From a bacterium (lineage in GTDB: Bacteria > UBP14 > UBA6098 > 4484-93): a stretch of 64,000 nucleotides of DNA. The notes beneath the pieces are model-generated. The model was not told the DNA's origin. It saw only the letters and a program-made list of their open reading frames with translations, and did not search any database. Within the stretch, counting starts at the first letter, position 1; every line of letters begins with the position of its first letter. The position numbers and the translations under genes were made by a program. Shown here one piece after another: positions 7,678-19,629 of the stretch. The stretch lies in assembly GCA_021158465.1 (NCBI GenBank), contig JAGGUN010000019.1, positions 62,001 through 126,000 of the forward strand. The letters run 5' to 3'.

Positions 7678-7706
7678 TTGACATAGTAGCGGTTGAAGAG
7701 TATAAT
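7678..7706 (+). promoter_or_regulatory. Consensus sigma-70-type promoter of the MglA/roadblock operon
   Basis: A perfect TTGACA (7678-7683), a 17-base spacer and a perfect TATAAT (7701-7706). It is the best promoter in the window. Transcription would begin near 7713, which rules out the TTG at 7706 as the start of the following gene and points to the ATG at 7739 behind GGAGG (7731-7735). Confidence 0.85.
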
Positions 7707-7738: not shown

Positions 7739-10081
7739 ATGAAGGGAACTTCCAAACAGGTAGTTCTAACGATACTCTTAATCATTTACCTACTGGCGGT
7801 TGCTTTATCAGGGCTTCTCTTTACCCTTCAGGAGACGTTCAATCCCCACCTTGAACTTCCTCTGCAGGTGGTAATTGAGCTGTTCTTCTACGCTGTGACA
7901 CTATACTTTTTCCTTGGCAGGTTTGAAATCATTAAATTCTTCAAGGGGCTTGGAATAATCATCATAACGAGGATAGTTCTATCCCTTGGTGTGGGAGTTG
8001 CTATCTGTGTAGTTGGTGATCTCCGTTACATAGATGCGTTGAGAGAGGCTTTATACGGATATTTTCTCGCGTACCTGTTTCAGATACTTGTCACACCGTT
8101 TCTCTCATATCCAGTATTGGGAATGTTGACGATTCGCTCAGAAGCCAAGCCTCCTGTTGGTGAACCGAAGCCTGAGGTACCGCCTGCGGTTCCTGGGGTG
8201 GAGCCAGATGAGGAGATACTCCAATCAGCTTGGATTCCTTTGGAGGAGGAAAAAGAAGTTGTTGAGGTGAAGGAGGAACAAAAGCCAGGGGAGGTTGAGG
8301 AGGCTGTTGAGGAGACCGTTGAGAAGATAAAGGAGGTTCCTACAGCTCCAGAGATGGTTGAGAAAGAGGAGGAGGTTGCCCTTGAGGAATCCGCATCTAT
8401 CTGGTCAGAGGAGATAACAGAGGCTGTTGAAGCAGCGGAGGCGGAGGAGATAGCCCCTAAGCCGGAAAAGCCGGAAGTGGAAGAGGTACCGGTTAAATCG
8501 GCTCCGAAGTTCATCCGACTGTCTCTCAGACAGATATTCGACCTCAATAAAGACAACCCGGGAATTGAGGTGTTGAAGAAGCTCGTCAAGGGTGGCTTCG
8601 ATTATAACCTTTCTATCCCGTTTGGGCTAATCGCTTCTCAGATTGAAACAGGCGAGATCAAGCTTACAGCGGATGCTATATATGATGTTATCCCAATTGA
8701 GTATGTGAACTTTGTTAGCCCGGAGCAGTCGGCAAACCTCTCCGAAATAGAGCTTCTGCTTCCGCTTGATGCTATTGTTCAGCAGATTCCTCCGCAGTAT
8801 TTTGAGGATGTCATCAAAACGGAGGAGCCTGTTAGGTCCAAGTGGGAAGAGGAGGCAGAAAAAGAGCTTGCCGATACCGTTCTTTTCTCCGAGGAAAAGG
8901 AACTGGCAGAAGGTATAAAGATTGAGAAAAAGGATGAGGGTGGCATCAAGGTGGAGAGGATTCAGGAAGAGGTTGAGGAAGAGGAGGCTGAGAAAAAGGA
9001 ACCCGCCGTAGAGGAGGAAAAAGAACCAGAGCCCGTGCTGGATATGGAAGAGGCACAATTGGATCAGATACCACAGGAAGAGGAGTCAGAGCAGCCATTG
9101 GAACAACCCGAGGAGCAGATTGAACTCGAGTTTAACCTGCCCAGTGTAGAGGGGGCGATAGAGACAGGTGAGGAGGAATATGAACCCTTCCCTAAGGTTG
9201 CTCCATCCGAAGCAGCTGAAGGGGTGGAGTTTTCTCTTGAAGAGCTGGAGGAAGAAAAGCCTCCTTCCGCACCAGTAACAGGGATCGCAAGAAAAGAGAT
9301 ATCTGTTGACTTTTCGAGGGTATTCGAGCAGCTTAAACACTATGGAGGAAAGTTTAAGATAGACTTTCTTACGGCGCAACCTCATCGGCTTTTTGGGGTC
9401 ATCCATACGCCAGAAGTCGAGCCGGCTGAGGTCGCTGGTGTAGTAAATCGAATATTTGAGGGGTTTCTTATCCCCGGATGGGAGAAGAGCATAAACTTCC
9501 TGACGCAGGTATACCAAAACGGAATATCCGTTATCACATTTCCGCTCGCACCGCAGACATCCTCAGCACTTATTTTTATCAACCCGTATGAGCAGAGACC
9601 GGGGATTGTAGAGAAGGATATGGGAAAGATTGGAGAGATAGTTGCAGAGCTTATTGTGGATGAATTGCAGATGACATCGATTGAGGTTTCACAGCCGGAC
9701 ACAGAGGGACTGGTCATCCGTGATTGGGAGGCAGAGAGGCTCCTCGAGCAGACATCAGGGCTCGGGTTCACACTGTCGAAGAGCGTTACATCAGCGGAAC
9801 AGGAGTTGCTTATCCTCGCCGATACGGAGGAAGCAGTGAAGGAAACAGCTTACATAGGGCTTGCTCTCTCACCGCTTTTTGTGAAACTTTCGGAGAGAAT
9901 AAGATTAGGAAACCTTATCTGCGCGATGTTATGGAACAGCCAAGACAATATATTCTATGCTCCTGCCGGAGCTAACCGCCTCTTTATGGCAAGGACACGC
10001 AAGAGGGTTATAAAAAGCGAGTTCCTTTTCAGGCTTGGGAATATAGCAAAACAGCTCGAACAACAGAAAAGCGATGAATAG
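7739..10081 (+). CDS. Large acidic membrane protein of the MglA/roadblock operon
   Basis: A 780-residue protein, not a family I can name. Residues 1-130 hold four membrane segments (VVLTILLIIYLLAVAL first, ILVTPFLSYPVLGML last). Residues about 140-255 are a Glu/Pro/Val-rich acidic linker. Residues 257-380 are folded and contain two related segments, IPFGLIASQIETGEIKL and LPLDAIVQQIPPQYF. A second Glu-rich linker spans about 380-515. The last 260 residues hold two globular parts, beginning ISVDFSRVFEQLKHYGG and GLVIRDWEAERLLEQ, whose alternation of strands and long helices looks like degenerate roadblock folds (inference). The start is ATG 7739 (see promoter). It overlaps the next gene by eight bases. 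It probably anchors or senses for the GTPase module at the inner membrane. Confidence 0.75.
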   Translation: MKGTSKQVVLTILLIIYLLAVALSGLLFTLQETFNPHLELPLQVVIELFFYAVTLYFFLGRFEIIKFFKGLGIIIITRIVLSLGVGVAICVVGDLRYIDALREALYGYFLAYLFQILVTPFLSYPVLGMLTIRSEAKPPVGEPKPEVPPAVPGVEPDEEILQSAWIPLEEEKEVVEVKEEQKPGEVEEAVEETVEKIKEVPTAPEMVEKEEEVALEESASIWSEEITEAVEAAEAEEIAPKPEKPEVEEVPVKSAPKFIRLSLRQIFDLNKDNPGIEVLKKLVKGGFDYNLSIPFGLIASQIETGEIKLTADAIYDVIPIEYVNFVSPEQSANLSEIELLLPLDAIVQQIPPQYFEDVIKTEEPVRSKWEEEAEKELADTVLFSEEKELAEGIKIEKKDEGGIKVERIQEEVEEEEAEKKEPAVEEEKEPEPVLDMEEAQLDQIPQEEESEQPLEQPEEQIELEFNLPSVEGAIETGEEEYEPFPKVAPSEAAEGVEFSLEELEEEKPPSAPVTGIARKEISVDFSRVFEQLKHYGGKFKIDFLTAQPHRLFGVIHTPEVEPAEVAGVVNRIFEGFLIPGWEKSINFLTQVYQNGISVITFPLAPQTSSALIFINPYEQRPGIVEKDMGKIGEIVAELIVDELQMTSIEVSQPDTEGLVIRDWEAERLLEQTSGLGFTLSKSVTSAEQELLILADTEEAVKETAYIGLALSPLFVKLSERIRLGNLICAMLWNSQDNIFYAPAGANRLFMARTRKRVIKSEFLFRLGNIAKQLEQQKSDE

Positions 10082-11015
10082 AAGGCTTATATACCTATAT
10101 CTGACATTCTCGTCTGCATTGCTCTTATTGGTGCTCTACTTTTTTATTCTGCTTTCGGGGCTAAGCAGACGATGGAATATGGGGTTACTTCCGACAGCTA
10201 TTCTTGTGGTCTCGTTCTATGTGTTATACATTTTCCTCGATGAGAAGGAATCCAGTATTCCTAAGATGGTTTTGAAACTTATCCTTATGCTGTTTACCCA
10301 TGCCTCGGTTGCTGTGGCACTGGCTGTCTTGTCGACTGCCCTGCGCCCAAGGCTTGATATATTCATCTCGATGGAATACACCCTCTCTTCCCTCCCACTG
10401 GTGGGTATAGAGATACTATTTATCATAGCCATCTTCTATCTCCAGAAGCGTTCCGTTGTGCCGGAGGAGAAGTCACTTGAACTTGGTATAGAGCCAGAAC
10501 CCTTGAAGGAAGAGCTGTTTGAGGAGATGAATATATCGTTCATAAAACCCAATACAGAAGAGTCTGTTCTTCCTGAAAAGGGGATAGAAGAGGTTACCCA
10601 AGATATAGAAAGCCTTTCAGAGAAGGTAATAAGCAACTATAGTGCTTGCTACTTTCTGCTCTTCACGAGAGACGGTTTCCCGATAGCCTCAAAGGGAAAG
10701 ATAAAACTATCTGCGGAACTTGCTTCTGCCGTTGGTCTGGGGTGTATAAACGATACTCAAGAGCTTTTTCGTGCCGTTTTTGGGAAGGGGAAACCGCTCT
10801 CAAAAGTTCTCTTGCGTGTTGAAGATTACACCGTTGGAATATCCAACGAAGCGGTCTTCCCGTTTATGGTCATCTTCGACTGGAATGTTCGAGCGGATGG
10901 AGTTGAAAATCTTCTCGTGGAGGTAGCGCGCTTTGTTGACCGGTTCTGGAGAGAAAAACAGGAAGAAAGGGAGAAATATGAGTTTAAAGATGAGGGAAGT
11001 CCTCACAGAACTTAA
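10074..11015 (+). CDS. Membrane protein with C-terminal roadblock/LC7-like domain
   Basis: A 313-residue protein: four membrane segments in residues 1-125 (LTFSSALLLLVLYFFILL, LPTAILVVSFYVLYIFL, LILMLFTHASVAVALAVL, LPLVGIEILFIIAIFYL), an acidic linker (residues 130-175), then about 130 residues with the roadblock pattern: IESLSEKVISNYSACYFLLFTR, DGFPIASKGKI, ELASAVGLGCINDTQELF, then LLRVEDYTVGISNE and a final helix. Roadblock proteins bind and regulate MglA-type GTPases. The architecture mirrors the preceding gene, with four helices, a linker and cytosolic C-terminal domains, so the two may form one membrane complex. It begins eight bases before the end of the preceding gene and runs 38 bases into the next. 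Confidence 0.75.
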   Translation: MNRRLIYLYLTFSSALLLLVLYFFILLSGLSRRWNMGLLPTAILVVSFYVLYIFLDEKESSIPKMVLKLILMLFTHASVAVALAVLSTALRPRLDIFISMEYTLSSLPLVGIEILFIIAIFYLQKRSVVPEEKSLELGIEPEPLKEELFEEMNISFIKPNTEESVLPEKGIEEVTQDIESLSEKVISNYSACYFLLFTRDGFPIASKGKIKLSAELASAVGLGCINDTQELFRAVFGKGKPLSKVLLRVEDYTVGISNEAVFPFMVIFDWNVRADGVENLLVEVARFVDRFWREKQEEREKYEFKDEGSPHRT

Positions 11016-11343
11016 TAGAAACAAGGGGGTTTTAGGCTCTCTTATTACGCTCAAGGACGGTATTCCTGTTGAGGCTATCCTTTCGGAGGGTGTAGACCTT
11101 GCGACGCTCTCTGCCGCGGTATCTGAGGTAGGGCAGACTATCTCCAAGTCGGAGAAACTCCTCGGCATCGGTGAACTACAGCAGGCAATTATCGAGACAT
11201 CCACAAGTAGATTGTTCATTGCCAATGTCGGGTTTGGATACCTTGCTGTAATCGCCCAGCTGGATGTGAATGTCGGGATGATAAGACTTCTGGTAACGGA
11301 AGCACAAAAGGATATCCAGAACATACACTTTGAGGAGGAGTGA
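10978..11343 (+). CDS. Roadblock/LC7 domain protein
   Basis: A 121-residue single-domain roadblock/LC7 protein: MREVLTELNRNKGVLGSLIT, KDGIPVEAILSEGVDL, then a helix (LATLSAAVSEVGQTISKSE), LGELQ-like GIGELQQAIIET, RLFIANVG, LAVIAQLDVNVGMIRLLV and a final helix. Such proteins dimerise and bind small GTPases of the Mgl/Arf-like kind. The start ATG 10978 is preceded by a purine-rich GGAAGAAAGGGAG. The mglA ATG follows its TGA directly, so the two are probably made in fixed ratio. It is more divergent from classical MglB than the protein at 11955. Confidence 0.85.
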   Translation: MSLKMREVLTELNRNKGVLGSLITLKDGIPVEAILSEGVDLATLSAAVSEVGQTISKSEKLLGIGELQQAIIETSTSRLFIANVGFGYLAVIAQLDVNVGMIRLLVTEAQKDIQNIHFEEE

Positions 11344-11943
11344 ATGCCTCAGATTAACTTCGCCGAGAAAGAGATTGCCTGCAAGCTGGTCTACTACGGA
11401 CCTGGCTTCTCCGGCAAGACGACAAACCTCCAGTATATCAACCGGAGACTCTCGCCCTCAAGGCGGTCTGAGCTTATATCCATTGCTACCGAAGGGGACA
11501 GAACACTCTTCTTCGACTTCCTCCCTCTGAAGGCGATGGTTATAAACGACTTCACCATCCGGTTCCAAGTGTATACCACTCCCGGACAACAGTATTATAA
11601 CGCCACGAGAAAGCTGGTCCTACGAGGAGTGGATGGTATCGTATTTGTCGCTGATTCCCAGTGGTCGAGGCAGAAAGATAATATCGAGAGCTTTCGGAAT
11701 ATGATGGATAACCTTGAAGAGAATGAATTATCATTGCTCGACATTCCTTATGTTCTTCAGTATAACAAGAGGGACCTTCCCGATATCGCCGGGGTCGAGT
11801 ATATGGACTTCCTGCTCAATAGGCGACCGAGAAGAGTGCCACGGTTTGAGTCTATCGCTACTGAGGGAAAAGGAGTATTCGATACACTTAATGAGATATC
11901 AAGGCTTGTTATTACAAAACTGCTCAAAGAAAGCATCGTATAA
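11344..11943 (+). CDS. mglA: MglA-type small Ras-like GTPase
   Basis: A 199-residue prokaryotic small GTPase. The P-loop is GPGFSGKTTNLQ; the Walker B/G3 region is YTTPGQQYYNATRKLVLRG, with Thr in place of the Asp of eukaryotic DxxG, exactly as in the MglA group; VDGIVFVADSQ follows; the base-specificity motif is NKRDLP and a G5-like region is IATEGKG. In Myxococcus MglA sets cell polarity for motility and is switched off by the roadblock GAP MglB; homologues occur in many non-gliding phyla. The ATG at 11344 lies directly after the upstream TGA with GAGGAGG as ribosome site. It is flanked on both sides by roadblock genes. Confidence 0.93.
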   Translation: MPQINFAEKEIACKLVYYGPGFSGKTTNLQYINRRLSPSRRSELISIATEGDRTLFFDFLPLKAMVINDFTIRFQVYTTPGQQYYNATRKLVLRGVDGIVFVADSQWSRQKDNIESFRNMMDNLEENELSLLDIPYVLQYNKRDLPDIAGVEYMDFLLNRRPRRVPRFESIATEGKGVFDTLNEISRLVITKLLKESIV

Positions 11944-11954
11944 AGGAGGGGGAA

Positions 11955-12437
11955 ATGGATCTCATAATCTACCGTGAGGAGCAGTTCCAGATTGATGAAA
12001 TCCTCAAGAACTTTCTGAAAAACTCCGGGGCTAAGACGGTCCTTCTCATAACCCCATCAGGGTTCACCATAAGCAAACAAGGGAACATACCCGGAGTAAA
12101 CATCGAATCGCTTGCCGTGCTTTCTGCTGGAACATTTGCCTCCACAAGGGAGATAGCGCGGCTTATCGGTGAAGATGAATTTACCGTACTGTTTCACCAA
12201 GGGAAAAGATATAACATTCATTTCTCCCTTGTCGTCAAGGATGTTATATTTGTCGCTATCTTTGAGAATACAACGACTATTGGAATGGTAAGACTGTTCG
12301 CCAGAGAAGCTGCGAGGGCGCTCGAGAAGATCCTTCTCGAAGTCAAGAGAAGGAGGAAAATCCCTATCTCTGAGGGTCCTGTGAAACCCGAGAATATAGA
12401 ACGGGAGATCTTTAAGGAAGAGAAGGAGGATAAATAG
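11955..12437 (+). CDS. MglB-like roadblock/LC7 protein
   Basis: A 160-residue roadblock protein close to MglB, the GTPase-activating partner of MglA: REEQFQIDEILKNFLKNSGA, VLLITPSGFTISKQG, LAVLSAGTFASTREIARLIG, EFTVLFHQGKRYNIHFSLV, VIFVAIFENTTTIGMVRLF, then a long basic/acidic helical tail to residue 160 that is longer than in typical MglB. A strong AAAGGAGGGGG lies three bases before the ATG, so it may be translated more than its neighbours. Last gene of the operon, convergent with purE only four bases away. Confidence 0.9.
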   Translation: MDLIIYREEQFQIDEILKNFLKNSGAKTVLLITPSGFTISKQGNIPGVNIESLAVLSAGTFASTREIARLIGEDEFTVLFHQGKRYNIHFSLVVKDVIFVAIFENTTTIGMVRLFAREAARALEKILLEVKRRRKIPISEGPVKPENIEREIFKEEKEDK

Positions 12438-14365: not shown

Positions 14366-16465
14366 GTGAGTAAAACAGGCAAAACATCAGGGTTCTTGTT
14401 GTTTCTTGCTCTGCTTCTCATCTCTTGTGCTGCATCTAAGGTATCCCTTGTCCCGAGTGATTCCGAGGGAGTGGAGCACCTCCTTGAGCGAGTGGATACC
14501 CTGTATGCTTCCGGGGTAGAGCACAACATAAATCGTGAATGGGGACTTGCTCAGGCAGATTTTGAGGAAGCCTTGAGGCTTATCTCCACGATTGATGTGA
14601 AGCCAGGTACGAAGAGGGAAATACTTGCAAGGATTGACGAGCTTCTCGGGAAGATTTCCTATGATTACCAGTACACGATGCGTTCCCTTGGGGATAGCTC
14701 TTACGAACTGTCTCCGATGGAGTTGGCGCTTGCACTTGAGTCGAGTAGGCTGTCCAGCGAGGAGCGGAAGCGGCTTGAGGGAATATCTAAGAGGATAACG
14801 CCCGATGAGACGGCGGAGTTCGATTTCCCCGTTGTCTGGAACGATAGAGTAAGGGAGAAGCTTGCACTCATTGAGACAGAGCTTAAGGAACCTATGGAGC
14901 GCTGGTTGGGTAGATTTACCCAGTATGAGGATATGATAAAGTCCATCTTCCGAGAAGAAGGACTGCCAGAGGACCTCGCGTATCTTGCTATTGTGGAAAG
15001 TGGGGTCAACCCGAGGGCTTATTCGTATGCCCACGCCTCTGGGATGTGGCAGTTTATGAAAGGGACAGGAAGAAGTTATGGTTTGCATTCTGACTGGTGG
15101 CGCGATGAGAGGCGTGATCCAGAAAGCTCCACGAGAGCCGCAGCCAAGCACCTGAAAAAGCTCTACAATATTTACGGAGATTGGTATCTGGCTCTTGCTG
15201 CTTACAACTGTGGTGAAGGGAACCTTAACAGAGCGATAAAACGCTGTGGGACAAGAGATTTCTGGCAACTCAAGCTCCATCCGCAGACGGAGGACTATCT
15301 TCCGATGTTCATTGCAACCCTTATTGTTGCAAAGAACCCTGCAAGGTACGGGCTATCTCCAAAAGAGTTTCCACCTATGGAGTTCGATACCGTTTATGTG
15401 GAAAACGGTGTGGACTTAAGAGTCGTCGCCGAGTGCGCTGACACAACGCTCGATTTCATTAAGGAGATAAATCCGATGATACTCCGATGGTGCACACCAC
15501 CGGATGTGACAAGATGCCAGCTACGGATCCCCAGAGGGAAGAAAGCCCAGTTTGAGGAAAGATATGCAAAGATTCCACCCGAGCGGAAACACGCCTGGGT
15601 CAGATACAAAATAAGGAGAGGTGATACCCTTTCCGGCATCGCCAAGAAGTTCTCCACGACTGTTGGTGCAATTATGGATGCCAACAAGATGACAAGGCGA
15701 GACACCAGAAGGCTTAGAATCGGCAAGTACATCCTCATCCCCGTTCCACCGGATAAGCTCGCCAGATATGCAAAATACAACAAGGACTCTGGCATGGGGG
15801 GTAGCAATAAAGGTAAATCCATCTACACGGTCAAGAAGAATGACACACTCTCGGGCATCGCTCATAAGCTTGGTGTTTCCGTTTCCTCTCTTATGAGATG
15901 GAATCATCTTGGTGAACGGACACTCATTCATCCCGGCGACAAACTCGTCTATTACTCAGGGAAGACCAGTTCACAGAAGGTCGTATATACGGTCAAGAAA
16001 AATGACACACTGTCCGGCATAGCGGCTCGATTTGGCACAACCGTCGCGGAGATCGAAAGGTGGAATAAGATCGACTCGAAGAAGATAATCCACCCTGGGG
16101 ACAGGCTTGTTCTCTTCAGCAGTGTTGCGAAAGGTGAGGAGCTATCAAGCAAAGGTGAAAAGGTGATATATGTGGTTAAGAAGGGAGACACCCTTTCGGA
16201 GATTGCATATAACTTGGGTGTAAGAGTTTCCGACATTAGGGCTTGGAACGGGAAGCGAGGGAACCTCATCCGTCCTGGTGAGAGACTTGTTGTATACACC
16301 AAAAAACCCCGTACAAAGCACTACACGGTGAGATCTGGGGATACCATCTGGTCTATTGCATCCCGTGAAGGTGCGGATGTAAGGACAATTCTGAGCCAAA
16401 ATAGCATCTCCGACCCAAGGAAGATAAAACCCGGAGATAAGATAATAATAACAACCAATGATTGA
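14366..16465 (+). CDS. mltD: MltD-like membrane-bound lytic transglycosylase with five LysM repeats
   Basis: A 699-residue lipoprotein that cuts peptidoglycan glycan strands. The signal ends in the lipobox LISC. Residues about 185-330 are the SLT domain: [19 protein letters not shown] with the catalytic Glu, [16 protein letters not shown], and [16 protein letters not shown]. Five LysM modules then run to the C-terminus; recognisable starts are [26 protein letters not shown] (twice), [13 protein letters not shown] and [14 protein letters not shown]. coli MltD has two LysM modules, so this version has an enlarged wall-binding tail. The start is a GTG; the upstream ribosome site is weak. It is followed closely by the HU gene. 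Confidence 0.92.
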
Positions 16466-16894: not shown

Positions 16895-17722
16895 ATGGTA
16901 AAGAGGTTCTGGATACAGCTTCTCGGGACGGTTCTTCCCAACTCATACACCAAAGGGCTTCTGACCGGAGCACAGATTTATCAAGGTCCTGCAAAAGGGG
17001 CTTGTATCCCAGTTCTCAACTGCTATAGCTGTCCGCTTGCATATACATCCTGTCCCATCGGGGCACTCCAGCACTTTATGGCAATCAAATCGCCTCCATA
17101 CCTTCTCTTGGGAACATTGTTTCCCATTGGTGTCGCGGTCGGTAGAGCCACCTGCGGATGGATATGCCCGTTCGGGTTCCTCCAGGATCTGCTTTATAAG
17201 ATTAAAACCCCGAAGATTGGATTGCCAGGCTGGACAGGATATCTCAAATATCTATCTTTGGTTTTACTGGTGCTCGTTATACCGTATCTCACGACGGAAC
17301 CTTGGTTCTGCAAGCTATGCCCTCAGGGAATGATAGAGGGCGGTATCCCGCAGGTCCTTTTATTCCCTGAAATCAGGCATCTTGTCGGATGGCTTTATTC
17401 AGTAAAAGGAGTAATACTTGCTACCTTCCTCATATTGTTTATCCTCATCAAGCGACCGTTCTGCCGGATGGTATGCCCGCTTGGAGCAATATTCTCATTC
17501 TTTAACAAGATAAGCCTGCTCCAGATAACGGTCGATCCGGAGGGATGCACAAAATGTGGCATCTGCAGAGCGGTTTGCCCGATGGATATATCGATATATG
17601 AGGACCCATCGAGCCTCGAGTGTATAAGATGTATGGAATGCGTGAGGGTCTGCCCGAATGTGCATATAACAACGCTTCTCTCACCGACAGAAAAATGTAG
17701 TCCACAGGAAGGAGAAGGATGA
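16895..17722 (+). CDS. NapH/YccM-like membrane polyferredoxin (4Fe-4S)
   Basis: A 275-residue membrane protein with several hydrophobic segments and two kinds of cysteine motifs. Near the start are CYSCPLAYTSCPIG and CGWICPFGFLQD; in the middle CKLCPQG and CRMVCPLGAIFSF; near the C-terminus two ferredoxin-like clusters, CTKCGICRAVCP and CIRCMECVRVCP. The CxxxCP elements in membrane loops are the hallmark of NapH/CcoG/YccM-type proteins, which pass electrons across or along the inner membrane. It sits between the CXXC mini-protein and an exported thioredoxin-like protein (ATGA overlap), suggesting delivery of electrons to the periplasm. The physiological donor is not evident. Confidence 0.88.
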   Translation: MVKRFWIQLLGTVLPNSYTKGLLTGAQIYQGPAKGACIPVLNCYSCPLAYTSCPIGALQHFMAIKSPPYLLLGTLFPIGVAVGRATCGWICPFGFLQDLLYKIKTPKIGLPGWTGYLKYLSLVLLVLVIPYLTTEPWFCKLCPQGMIEGGIPQVLLFPEIRHLVGWLYSVKGVILATFLILFILIKRPFCRMVCPLGAIFSFFNKISLLQITVDPEGCTKCGICRAVCPMDISIYEDPSSLECIRCMECVRVCPNVHITTLLSPTEKCSPQEGEG

Positions 17723-19629
17723 AATCTTTCACGATATCTATTCTGTTTCTCCTTTTGCTTTCGACCGTTGCGTCCCCTTTTGACAGAATGGTTCTGGGTG
17801 AGCTTTTCGCAAACCACGGCTGTCCTTACTGTGTCCCTGCCAACCAGTTCCTCGATGAGCTTTACCCTGACATCTCCGACCATACCGCACTCATCCGTTA
17901 TCATGTCTGGTGGCCTGCATCCGATGACCCGTTCTATGAATATAACCCCGAGCAGAACAGGGAAAGAACAACATGCTATGCTGTCTCTGCTGTTCCATCC
18001 TTTGTCATCGATGGTGAGGTAGTTGATGCACCATACGGGCAATGGGACGACTCACTCGATGCCCGCGCAGAGGTTTCTTCTCCTGTTGCAATCGAGATAG
18101 ACACGAGCATCTTCGGTGAAGTAACGATAAGAATAGATACACGAGACCTTACAGAATCGATGGGTGGAAAGCTGTTTGTCGTCATAACGGAGGATTCTAT
18201 TCACCACATTGCTCCAAACGGCGAGACGATGTTCCAGCAGATTATGAGGAAGATGATCCCACCCGATGGTGAGCCGATGACGCTCCATCCAGGCGTGACA
18301 GTCGAAAAAAGTTTTGATATTCCAATTGACCCAGTTTGGAACCTTGAGCAGTGCAACATAGTGGCTTTCTTTCAGGCATTTTCTCGTGAGGTATTGCAGT
18401 CTGCTGTGGTCCGCTTCCCTCATCGCCCAGAATACTTCGTCTCACTTTCTGCCGATTCTGGGAAGAAATCAATAGCATCGCCGCATTCTGTGGTGAGCTT
18501 CCGAATGACGCTCTCTAACACTGGAACGGAAAGCGATATATATTCTTTCTGGCACGACGATACAGGACTTCCCGATGGCTGGAGCGCCCAACTTTCCTGG
18601 GTTAGCGGCCTGTTTGACTCCTCTGATATATACCTCTCATCCATGGAGGCAGTCAGCATATCACTTGATGTCCATGTCGGCGATGGTGGAATAGGGTATG
18701 TGGATGTCAATGCCGCATCGAACACGGTAGTCGATCTCCGGAAGAGCATCCGCTTCATCGTCATATCCGATGTGGACATGCTTCTCGTCGACAACTCAAA
18801 GGACATTGCGGGGGAGGAGCTAATACTATCCGATCTGAACGAACTATTTGGTAATGTCGCTTACTGGAACACATCCTCCGATGGACAGATTACAGGCATA
18901 GACGGTATAGACATAGGCAGTCTTGTCTGGTATTCAGGGAAGGACACATCGACCGCCCTTCTATATGACGACATCGAACAGCTTTCAGATTATCTATCGG
19001 ATGGCGGCGGTTTGCTCGTCGCAGGGAACGGATTTGGCAGAAGCATAGGGAGCAACGCATTCTATATTCTCAGGATGAAGTCGGTGTATCTTGGAAGCTC
19101 GGATAGCTATTCCTCGGTTTCGGGTGTTGGACCACTTGCTGGTTTATCGGCTGACCTGCTGCCCACCAATGTTGAGGTGATCCGTCCACTCAACGATTCT
19201 GCAGTCGTCACTCTCCAGTATGATGATGGGGAGACCTGCGCAGGGATATACTTTAAGGATGGTTATAAACTCGTCTATCTCCCGTTCGACCCAGCAGATA
19301 TACCCAACTCTGATGCAAGGAGGGAGCTGTTTGGCAGGCTCCTTGGAGGGCTACCAGTGGAGGATACAGGTAAACCCAAGATGGTATCGCTCGATGTTTA
19401 CCCGAACCCGTTTAACGGCGAGCTAAACATCCATCTGGATGCCTCAGGATGTTCATCGGTCGAGATTTATAACACGCTCGGAGAGAAAGTAGCCGAACTT
19501 GTGCTAACATCCTATGATGCTCCTGCAACCGTTCGCTGGAAGCCGGATGATCTCCCATCAGGTGTCTACCTTCTCCGTGCCTCGCTGAAGAAATATCCCA
19601 TCTATAGAAAAATTGTGTTGCTAAAATAG
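17719..19629 (+). CDS. Exported thioredoxin/Omp28-like protein with C-terminal sorting tail
   Basis: A 636-residue secreted protein. After a signal peptide (MKSFTISILFLLLLSTVASP) comes a thioredoxin-like domain: MVLGELFANHGCPYCVPANQ with a CPYC redox pair at about residue 35, then AVSAVPSFVIDGE, with the cis-proline region of the fold. The middle is Ig-like, followed by a segment like a gasdermin-unrelated flavodoxin/DUF-type fold (VDMLLVDNSKDIAGEE, GGGLLVAGNGFGRS). The tail begins VYPNPFNGELNIHLDASG and ends SGVYLLRASLKKYPI, a type IX-like sorting domain. Omp28-type proteins of Bacteroidetes share the thioredoxin head. Coupled by ATGA to the polyferredoxin, it may be the acceptor of electrons in this operon (inference). 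Confidence 0.82.
   Translation: MKSFTISILFLLLLSTVASPFDRMVLGELFANHGCPYCVPANQFLDELYPDISDHTALIRYHVWWPASDDPFYEYNPEQNRERTTCYAVSAVPSFVIDGEVVDAPYGQWDDSLDARAEVSSPVAIEIDTSIFGEVTIRIDTRDLTESMGGKLFVVITEDSIHHIAPNGETMFQQIMRKMIPPDGEPMTLHPGVTVEKSFDIPIDPVWNLEQCNIVAFFQAFSREVLQSAVVRFPHRPEYFVSLSADSGKKSIASPHSVVSFRMTLSNTGTESDIYSFWHDDTGLPDGWSAQLSWVSGLFDSSDIYLSSMEAVSISLDVHVGDGGIGYVDVNAASNTVVDLRKSIRFIVISDVDMLLVDNSKDIAGEELILSDLNELFGNVAYWNTSSDGQITGIDGIDIGSLVWYSGKDTSTALLYDDIEQLSDYLSDGGGLLVAGNGFGRSIGSNAFYILRMKSVYLGSSDSYSSVSGVGPLAGLSADLLPTNVEVIRPLNDSAVVTLQYDDGETCAGIYFKDGYKLVYLPFDPADIPNSDARRELFGRLLGGLPVEDTGKPKMVSLDVYPNPFNGELNIHLDASGCSSVEIYNTLGEKVAELVLTSYDAPATVRWKPDDLPSGVYLLRASLKKYPIYRKIVLLK

Follow-up and report, generated by a model that had tools for sequence, protein, structure and literature searches.

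How does the small GTPase MglA arrive at a particular membrane site? To our knowledge it lacks an anchor that would hold it in the membrane, and its route there has been explained in only a minority of the bacteria that encode it. The five-gene operon at positions 7739-12437 of the DNA analysed here (a stretch of 64 kb, called the window) suggests one, since it encodes MglA beside a roadblock domain predicted to be fused to membrane helices. Because the same gene set sits within type IV pilus clusters of other phyla, its products probably control the place and time of pilus assembly from an anchor in the membrane. In its fuller form, the reading that the operon makes one membrane-anchored multi-roadblock platform, Ragulator-like in layout, which brings in and switches MglA and so controls type IV pili, seems moderately likely. 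The window is part of contig C41 in a genome (G000) of 2.04 Mb in 54 contigs, 97.6% complete; G numbers denote genomes, L numbers loci, and the class means the 17 genomes of the window organism's own class. The features of the operon are the following.

7678-7706, + strand: sigma-70 consensus promoter TTGACA-N17-TATAAT, matching at 12 of 12 positions
7739-10081, + strand: scaffold protein of 780 aa with four transmembrane (TM) helices, an acidic linker, domain A, a second acidic linker and a two-part alpha/beta C-terminus (translation, class homologues)
8498-8818, + strand: domain A of the scaffold, about residues 254-360, roughly 105 residues with I-x-L-P-L-x-x-I motifs (hidden Markov model, HMM, built in this analysis)
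9290-10078, + strand: C-terminal region of the scaffold, residues 518-780 (AlphaFold model, low confidence)
10074-11015, + strand: membrane roadblock protein of 313 aa with four TM helices and a predicted cytosolic roadblock (translation, AlphaFold, aligned counterparts)
10596-10961, + strand: predicted roadblock domain of that protein, residues 175-296 (AlphaFold, Foldseek, VIA-align)
10978-11343, + strand: soluble roadblock protein of 121 aa, upstream type (Pfam Robl_LC7, 5.5e-8)
11344-11943, + strand: MglA-type small GTPase of 199 aa (Pfam Ras, 7.3e-7; PDB MglA, 1.9e-65)
11955-12437, + strand: MglB-type roadblock protein of 160 aa (Pfam Robl_LC7, 1.2e-8; PDB MglB, 2e-22)

The operon is compact, with spacings of -8, -38, 0 and +11 bp between genes that all start with ATG. 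Its promoter is the sole exact copy of the consensus in 64 kb, where shuffling expects 0. A preliminary description made from the sequence had reported both the strong promoter and the run of five overlapping or abutting genes, with an MglA-type GTPase between two soluble roadblock proteins, and all of this holds. Comparison of two genus members, over the parts present in both genomes, gives ratios of nonsynonymous to synonymous substitution (dN/dS) of 0.03 to 0.13 for the five genes, including 0.13 for the 10074 gene and 0.11 for the C-terminal 425 codons of the scaffold; all five are therefore maintained by purifying selection. Both Pfam-detected Robl_LC7 domains and the only MglA found in the window genome lie within this operon.

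The best-supported new point is the predicted tethered roadblock of the 10074 protein, because a confident model and the matches from fold searches coincide. AlphaFold places helices of a membrane domain at residues 3-126, with low confidence, and an alpha-beta-beta-alpha-beta-beta-beta-alpha domain at residues 178-303, with predicted local distance difference test (pLDDT) values mostly of 78-90, about 85. Foldseek returns the p14/MP1 and Ragulator roadblocks, an Asgard roadblock and MglB as the best matches of the C-terminal model (E 1e-6), and VIA-align against Ragulator, MglB and Asgard roadblocks gives Z scores of 14-16 across about 115-120 residues. The alignment behind the model holds positional counterparts only, just one of which (L007) exceeds the Pfam roadblock cut-off. 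Pfam detects no roadblock in the window protein itself; among its counterparts, L007 passes at 2.9e-5 and that of G024 falls just under the cut-off at 1.6e-4. The C-terminus is thus modelled as a roadblock, as the preliminary description had proposed for residues 175-300, and the four hydrophobic N-terminal helices it had described are present in both the 7739 and 10074 proteins. A tblastn search of phage sequences with the 10074 protein gave no match.

The same description had also placed a roadblock at residues 515-780 of the 7739 protein, and this part is not established. Pfam finds no roadblock there or in the whole protein even at E 10, and comparison of both halves of the C-terminus with roadblock profiles is not significant. 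The AlphaFold model of residues 518-780 runs through the alpha-beta-beta-alpha-beta-beta-beta-alpha order twice, but at a pLDDT of 45.6. Its alignment rows are positional orthologues (L006, L007), chosen and trimmed for MAFFT agreement with a hand alignment and so not fully independent, and Foldseek and VIA-align searches with this low-confidence model return weak unrelated rows and no roadblock. A roadblock fold in this region is possible because the element order is seen twice and because the last repeat of the Armatimonadota scaffold counterparts aligns with a roadblock profile at E 3e-4, a weak and only suggestive alignment. A match of G058 to residues 611-695 belongs to a PRC-barrel/MgtE_N/CBS protein and was judged to be chance.

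Two features of the scaffold had gone unmentioned before: its long acidic linkers and, at about residues 254-360, a conserved domain, domain A. Domain A has no relatives in Pfam or the PDB. The HMM matches the protein preceding MglA in 29 screened loci, mostly of Verrucomicrobiota, a count that includes several members of the training set. In some of these Verrucomicrobiota proteins the C-terminal end is a genuine roadblock (L008, Robl_LC7 5.2e-9). Domain A is an undescribed domain common to MglA-linked scaffolds of several phyla.

By sequence, the MglA and MglB of the operon are orthodox. The best PDB match of the GTPase is Thermus MglA, and the GxxxxGKT, PGQ and NKRD motifs are retained, which places the product in the MglA family of small GTPases. 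The 11955-12437 protein matches Myxococcus MglB in the PDB and scores 35.0 bits for Robl_LC7 against a curated cut-off of 23; its match to the NCBIfam equivalog for Thermus-type MglB is below the cut-off.

Genome comparisons show that the module is conserved yet rare and patchy. The nearest named classmate, AUK196 (L004, G008), has all five genes in the order scaffold, TM plus roadblock, roadblock, MglA and MglB; its second protein has one TM helix, compared with four in the window protein. The genus-mate G001 keeps the five-gene order, its scaffold being interrupted at a contig end. All five genes also occur in Armatimonadota, at L006 (G062) with a TPR-roadblock gene in front and at L007 (G063), where a contig end cuts the scaffold and the membrane protein is the one that exceeds the Pfam cut-off. 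A variant set in Sumerlaeota (L064), G024 and G316 consists of a TPR gene, a 4-TM-roadblock protein, a roadblock, an extended MglA and MglB, and Pfam detects a roadblock in the TPR gene of G024. The C-terminal extension of MglA measures roughly 160-180 residues in L158 (G024), L064 and L214 (G316).

In 386 sampled genomes, the membrane-roadblock profile finds the protein in 6 of the 17 class genomes and, outside the class, as a TM protein only in G024 and G316; among 201 genomes drawn from the phylum to which G062 belongs, it is clear in 3. Matches in G368, G084 and G355 were rejected as members of the membrane type because these roadblock proteins lack TM helices (that of G084 contains TPR). 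MglA itself was found in 13 class genomes, and in each of them one or both membrane genes are present: a 7739-type scaffold in 12 and the membrane roadblock gene in G015. G005 and G014 have neither MglA nor the membrane genes. The set thus largely co-occurs with mglA in relatives, as the preliminary picture of a membrane-bound switch requires. A tethered roadblock beside MglA is supported for the 10074 protein, but a second one, in the 7739 protein, could not be demonstrated.

Several classmates carry scaffolds in other settings. Family f4 combines a scaffold ending at domain A with MglA and MglB, with no recognised membrane roadblock gene. Directly upstream of these genes lies a protein of roughly 1,500 aa (L109 9502-14001, L112 8463-13001), and Pfam gives no match for the L109 copy. 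In three f3 classmates, two of which belong to one genus, the domain-A scaffold gene comes after a gene for a protein of roughly 180 aa that looks NYN/LabA-like by eye (L113 7846-8391, L111 2351-2896, L120 5689-6228), in place of preceding roadblock genes. G006 (L120; 98% complete) and G002 (L119) have a scaffold-type gene and no detected MglA; there the scaffold may work independently of MglA, or MglA may be absent from the assembly.

Neighbouring genes in other lineages point to a function in type IV pili. In G062, from Armatimonadota, genes for PilN, a secretin, a PilB-type protein, PilT and PilC come after the module on its own strand, and secretin genes follow it in G063 and G577. The module of G024 leads directly to PilB, which exceeds its cut-off, and PilT, and that of G316 to PilB, a gene for a PilT-like ATPase, PilC and a kinase resembling PilS. 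Pilus genes thus stand beside the module in three of three Armatimonadota loci and in two further lineages (G024, G316). A PilB-type gene also lies upstream of scaffold-MglA-MglB operons in seven screened Verrucomicrobiota neighbourhoods; of the three tested by NCBIfam, two exceed the PilB cut-off and are also over or near that of GspE. From the numbers of matches to T2SSE, the PilB-family ATPase (3-13 per genome), the chance of finding such a gene within about 10 kb of the locus is roughly estimated at a few per cent in any one genome, which lends weight to its recurrence in independent lineages. The window genome has pilus proteins of its own on contig C24, namely PilB (739.6 bits against a cut-off of 675.65), PilT, PilC and PilS-type proteins. 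These results sharpen the earlier proposal of envelope or secretion machines as the target to type IV pili. Among other genes in these regions, the last one of an Armatimonadota pilus cluster joins sigma-70 to a GGDEF domain (L218 352-1779), and genes for DUF4388, which we take to be the PATAN domain, lie near the module in L064 and L220.

Some observations weigh against a pilus-controlling platform. Neither the window operon nor that of AUK196 is beside pilus genes, and the pil genes of the window genome are on other contigs. PilB-family ATPases are common, so the linkage is weak in any single genome. The scaffold of G006 without detected MglA and the f4 scaffold without a recognised membrane roadblock gene indicate that parts of the module are separable.

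The distance from pilus genes leaves room for a membrane-bound MglA switch of polarity or of the envelope, with cell-envelope growth, gliding or protein secretion, not pili, as its output here. The window does encode cell-wall proteins (PBP and RodA/FtsW at 14-2591, a LysM-SLT transglycosylase at 14366-16465), and its genome encodes Por_Secre_tail proteins, which point to type IX-like secretion. The wall genes lie outside the operon, however, and none is seen beside the module in relatives, where the functional neighbour recurring across phyla is the pilus machinery; this output is accordingly unlikely. The Por_Secre_tail C-terminal sorting domains are found at 17719-19629 of the window and at L222 14243-16558, one of the proteins also carrying Omp28. 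The immediate neighbours of the window operon are nfo-type and purE/purD-type genes.

A sensory role appears rather improbable. Here the TM part would detect a membrane or periplasmic signal and alter roadblock contacts, so that MglA reports the signal and pili are one of several outputs. Four TM helices joined to a cytosolic regulator domain are a usual receptor layout, and conservons join a membrane kinase with a roadblock and a GTPase (PMC4316618, PMC13343842). The Methylomirabilota locus L005 opens with a response-regulator-roadblock fusion, and the DUF4388 genes of L064 and L220 fit the same idea. Yet no sensory or kinase domain is recognisable, the loops between helices are short, and a single TM helix replaces the four of the second protein in the classmates L004, L153 and L154, a change more in keeping with an anchor than with a sensor. 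At L005 (3495-9775), the receiver-roadblock fusion precedes the scaffold, and a second, convergent roadblock gene set follows MglB. That an ordinary MglA-MglB pair merely happens to share its operon with unrelated membrane proteins is very improbable because gene order is conserved across several phyla, and the gene overlaps and the roadblock fold modelled in the membrane protein also count against it, even if MglA and MglB by themselves resemble known pairs.

For the favoured platform controlling pili, we infer complex formation, the roles of GTPase-activating protein (GAP) and guanine nucleotide exchange factor, the topology in the membrane and, for the window organism, an output through pili. 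The 4-TM-roadblock protein, and probably the larger 4-TM scaffold too, would be embedded in the inner membrane and reach into the cytosol with flexible arms. Together, the tethered roadblock, the soluble 10978 roadblock and MglB (11955) would assemble into a heteromeric platform that binds MglA. Its MglB would act as a GAP, as in Myxococcus and Thermus. Recruitment of MglA to a fixed place on the membrane, and perhaps promotion of its GTP state, would fall to another part of the platform or directly to the membrane proteins. MglA-GTP kept at that site would then allow the type IV pilus machine to assemble, comparable to MglA with SgmX in Myxococcus. A roadblock fused to membrane helices and encoded with MglA, often with pilus genes, offers a directly testable answer to how MglA is recruited to membranes. 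A larger version, tentatively possible, is a bacterial Ragulator-like platform, patchy in several phyla. It would be a heteromeric, membrane-embedded assembly with as many as five roadblock domains (two from the scaffold, one from the 4-TM protein and two soluble) plus domain A, and would recruit and activate MglA at the membrane and in this way position type IV pili.

Membrane-tethered roadblock proteins encoded with MglA were not found described in the open-licence literature searched. A 2014 survey of MglA-associated neighbourhoods names PATAN genes and conservons, and a TM-roadblock protein is absent from the passages of it considered here (PMC4316618). The Myxococcus xanthus system (MglA/MglB with MglC, RomR/RomX, RomY and SgmX) shares the MglA and MglB families and has more than one roadblock protein. 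There MglB and a second protein make up a composite GAP (PMC9481161), and MglA, together with SgmX, a TPR protein, promotes the formation of pili (PMC7519303, PMC7668184). Likewise, relatives of the window operon show a type IV pilus link, and TPR proteins lie near the module in G024, G316, G062 and L064. Unlike this system, whose MglB and MglC are soluble, the window operon is predicted to fuse at least one roadblock to membrane helices and adds a domain-A scaffold, and it contains no RomR-type gene.

The actinobacterial conservon (CvnA-D) is likewise a small operon with an MglA-type GTPase, an MglB-type roadblock and a membrane protein. Its membrane component is histidine-kinase-like with HAMP (PMC13343842) and it includes CvnC, whereas the window operon has several roadblocks and domain A, and Pfam finds no CvnA-type kinase domain in either membrane protein. 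The Verrucomicrobiota loci, arranged as PilB, a domain A plus roadblock protein, MglA and MglB, have the domain A, roadblock, MglA and MglB in common with the window. In contrast to the window, they unite domain A and the roadblock in one protein without the four N-terminal helices, show no separate membrane roadblock, and in several cases include a pilB-type gene in the same gene run.

Ragulator (LAMTOR) with its Rag GTPases appears to be the closest analogue in layout (PMC5680233), a resemblance that implies no homology of the complex. Ragulator combines several different roadblocks with a membrane anchor that recruits a small GTPase, and its subunits are among the top structural matches of the 10074 domain. 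Its roadblock subunits lack membrane helices and are held by p18, of which no counterpart is seen here, and MglA lacks the C-terminal roadblock domain of the Rag GTPases. Within these bounds, the tethered roadblock-MglA set may represent a bacterial parallel to the Ragulator-Rag arrangement on lysosomes.

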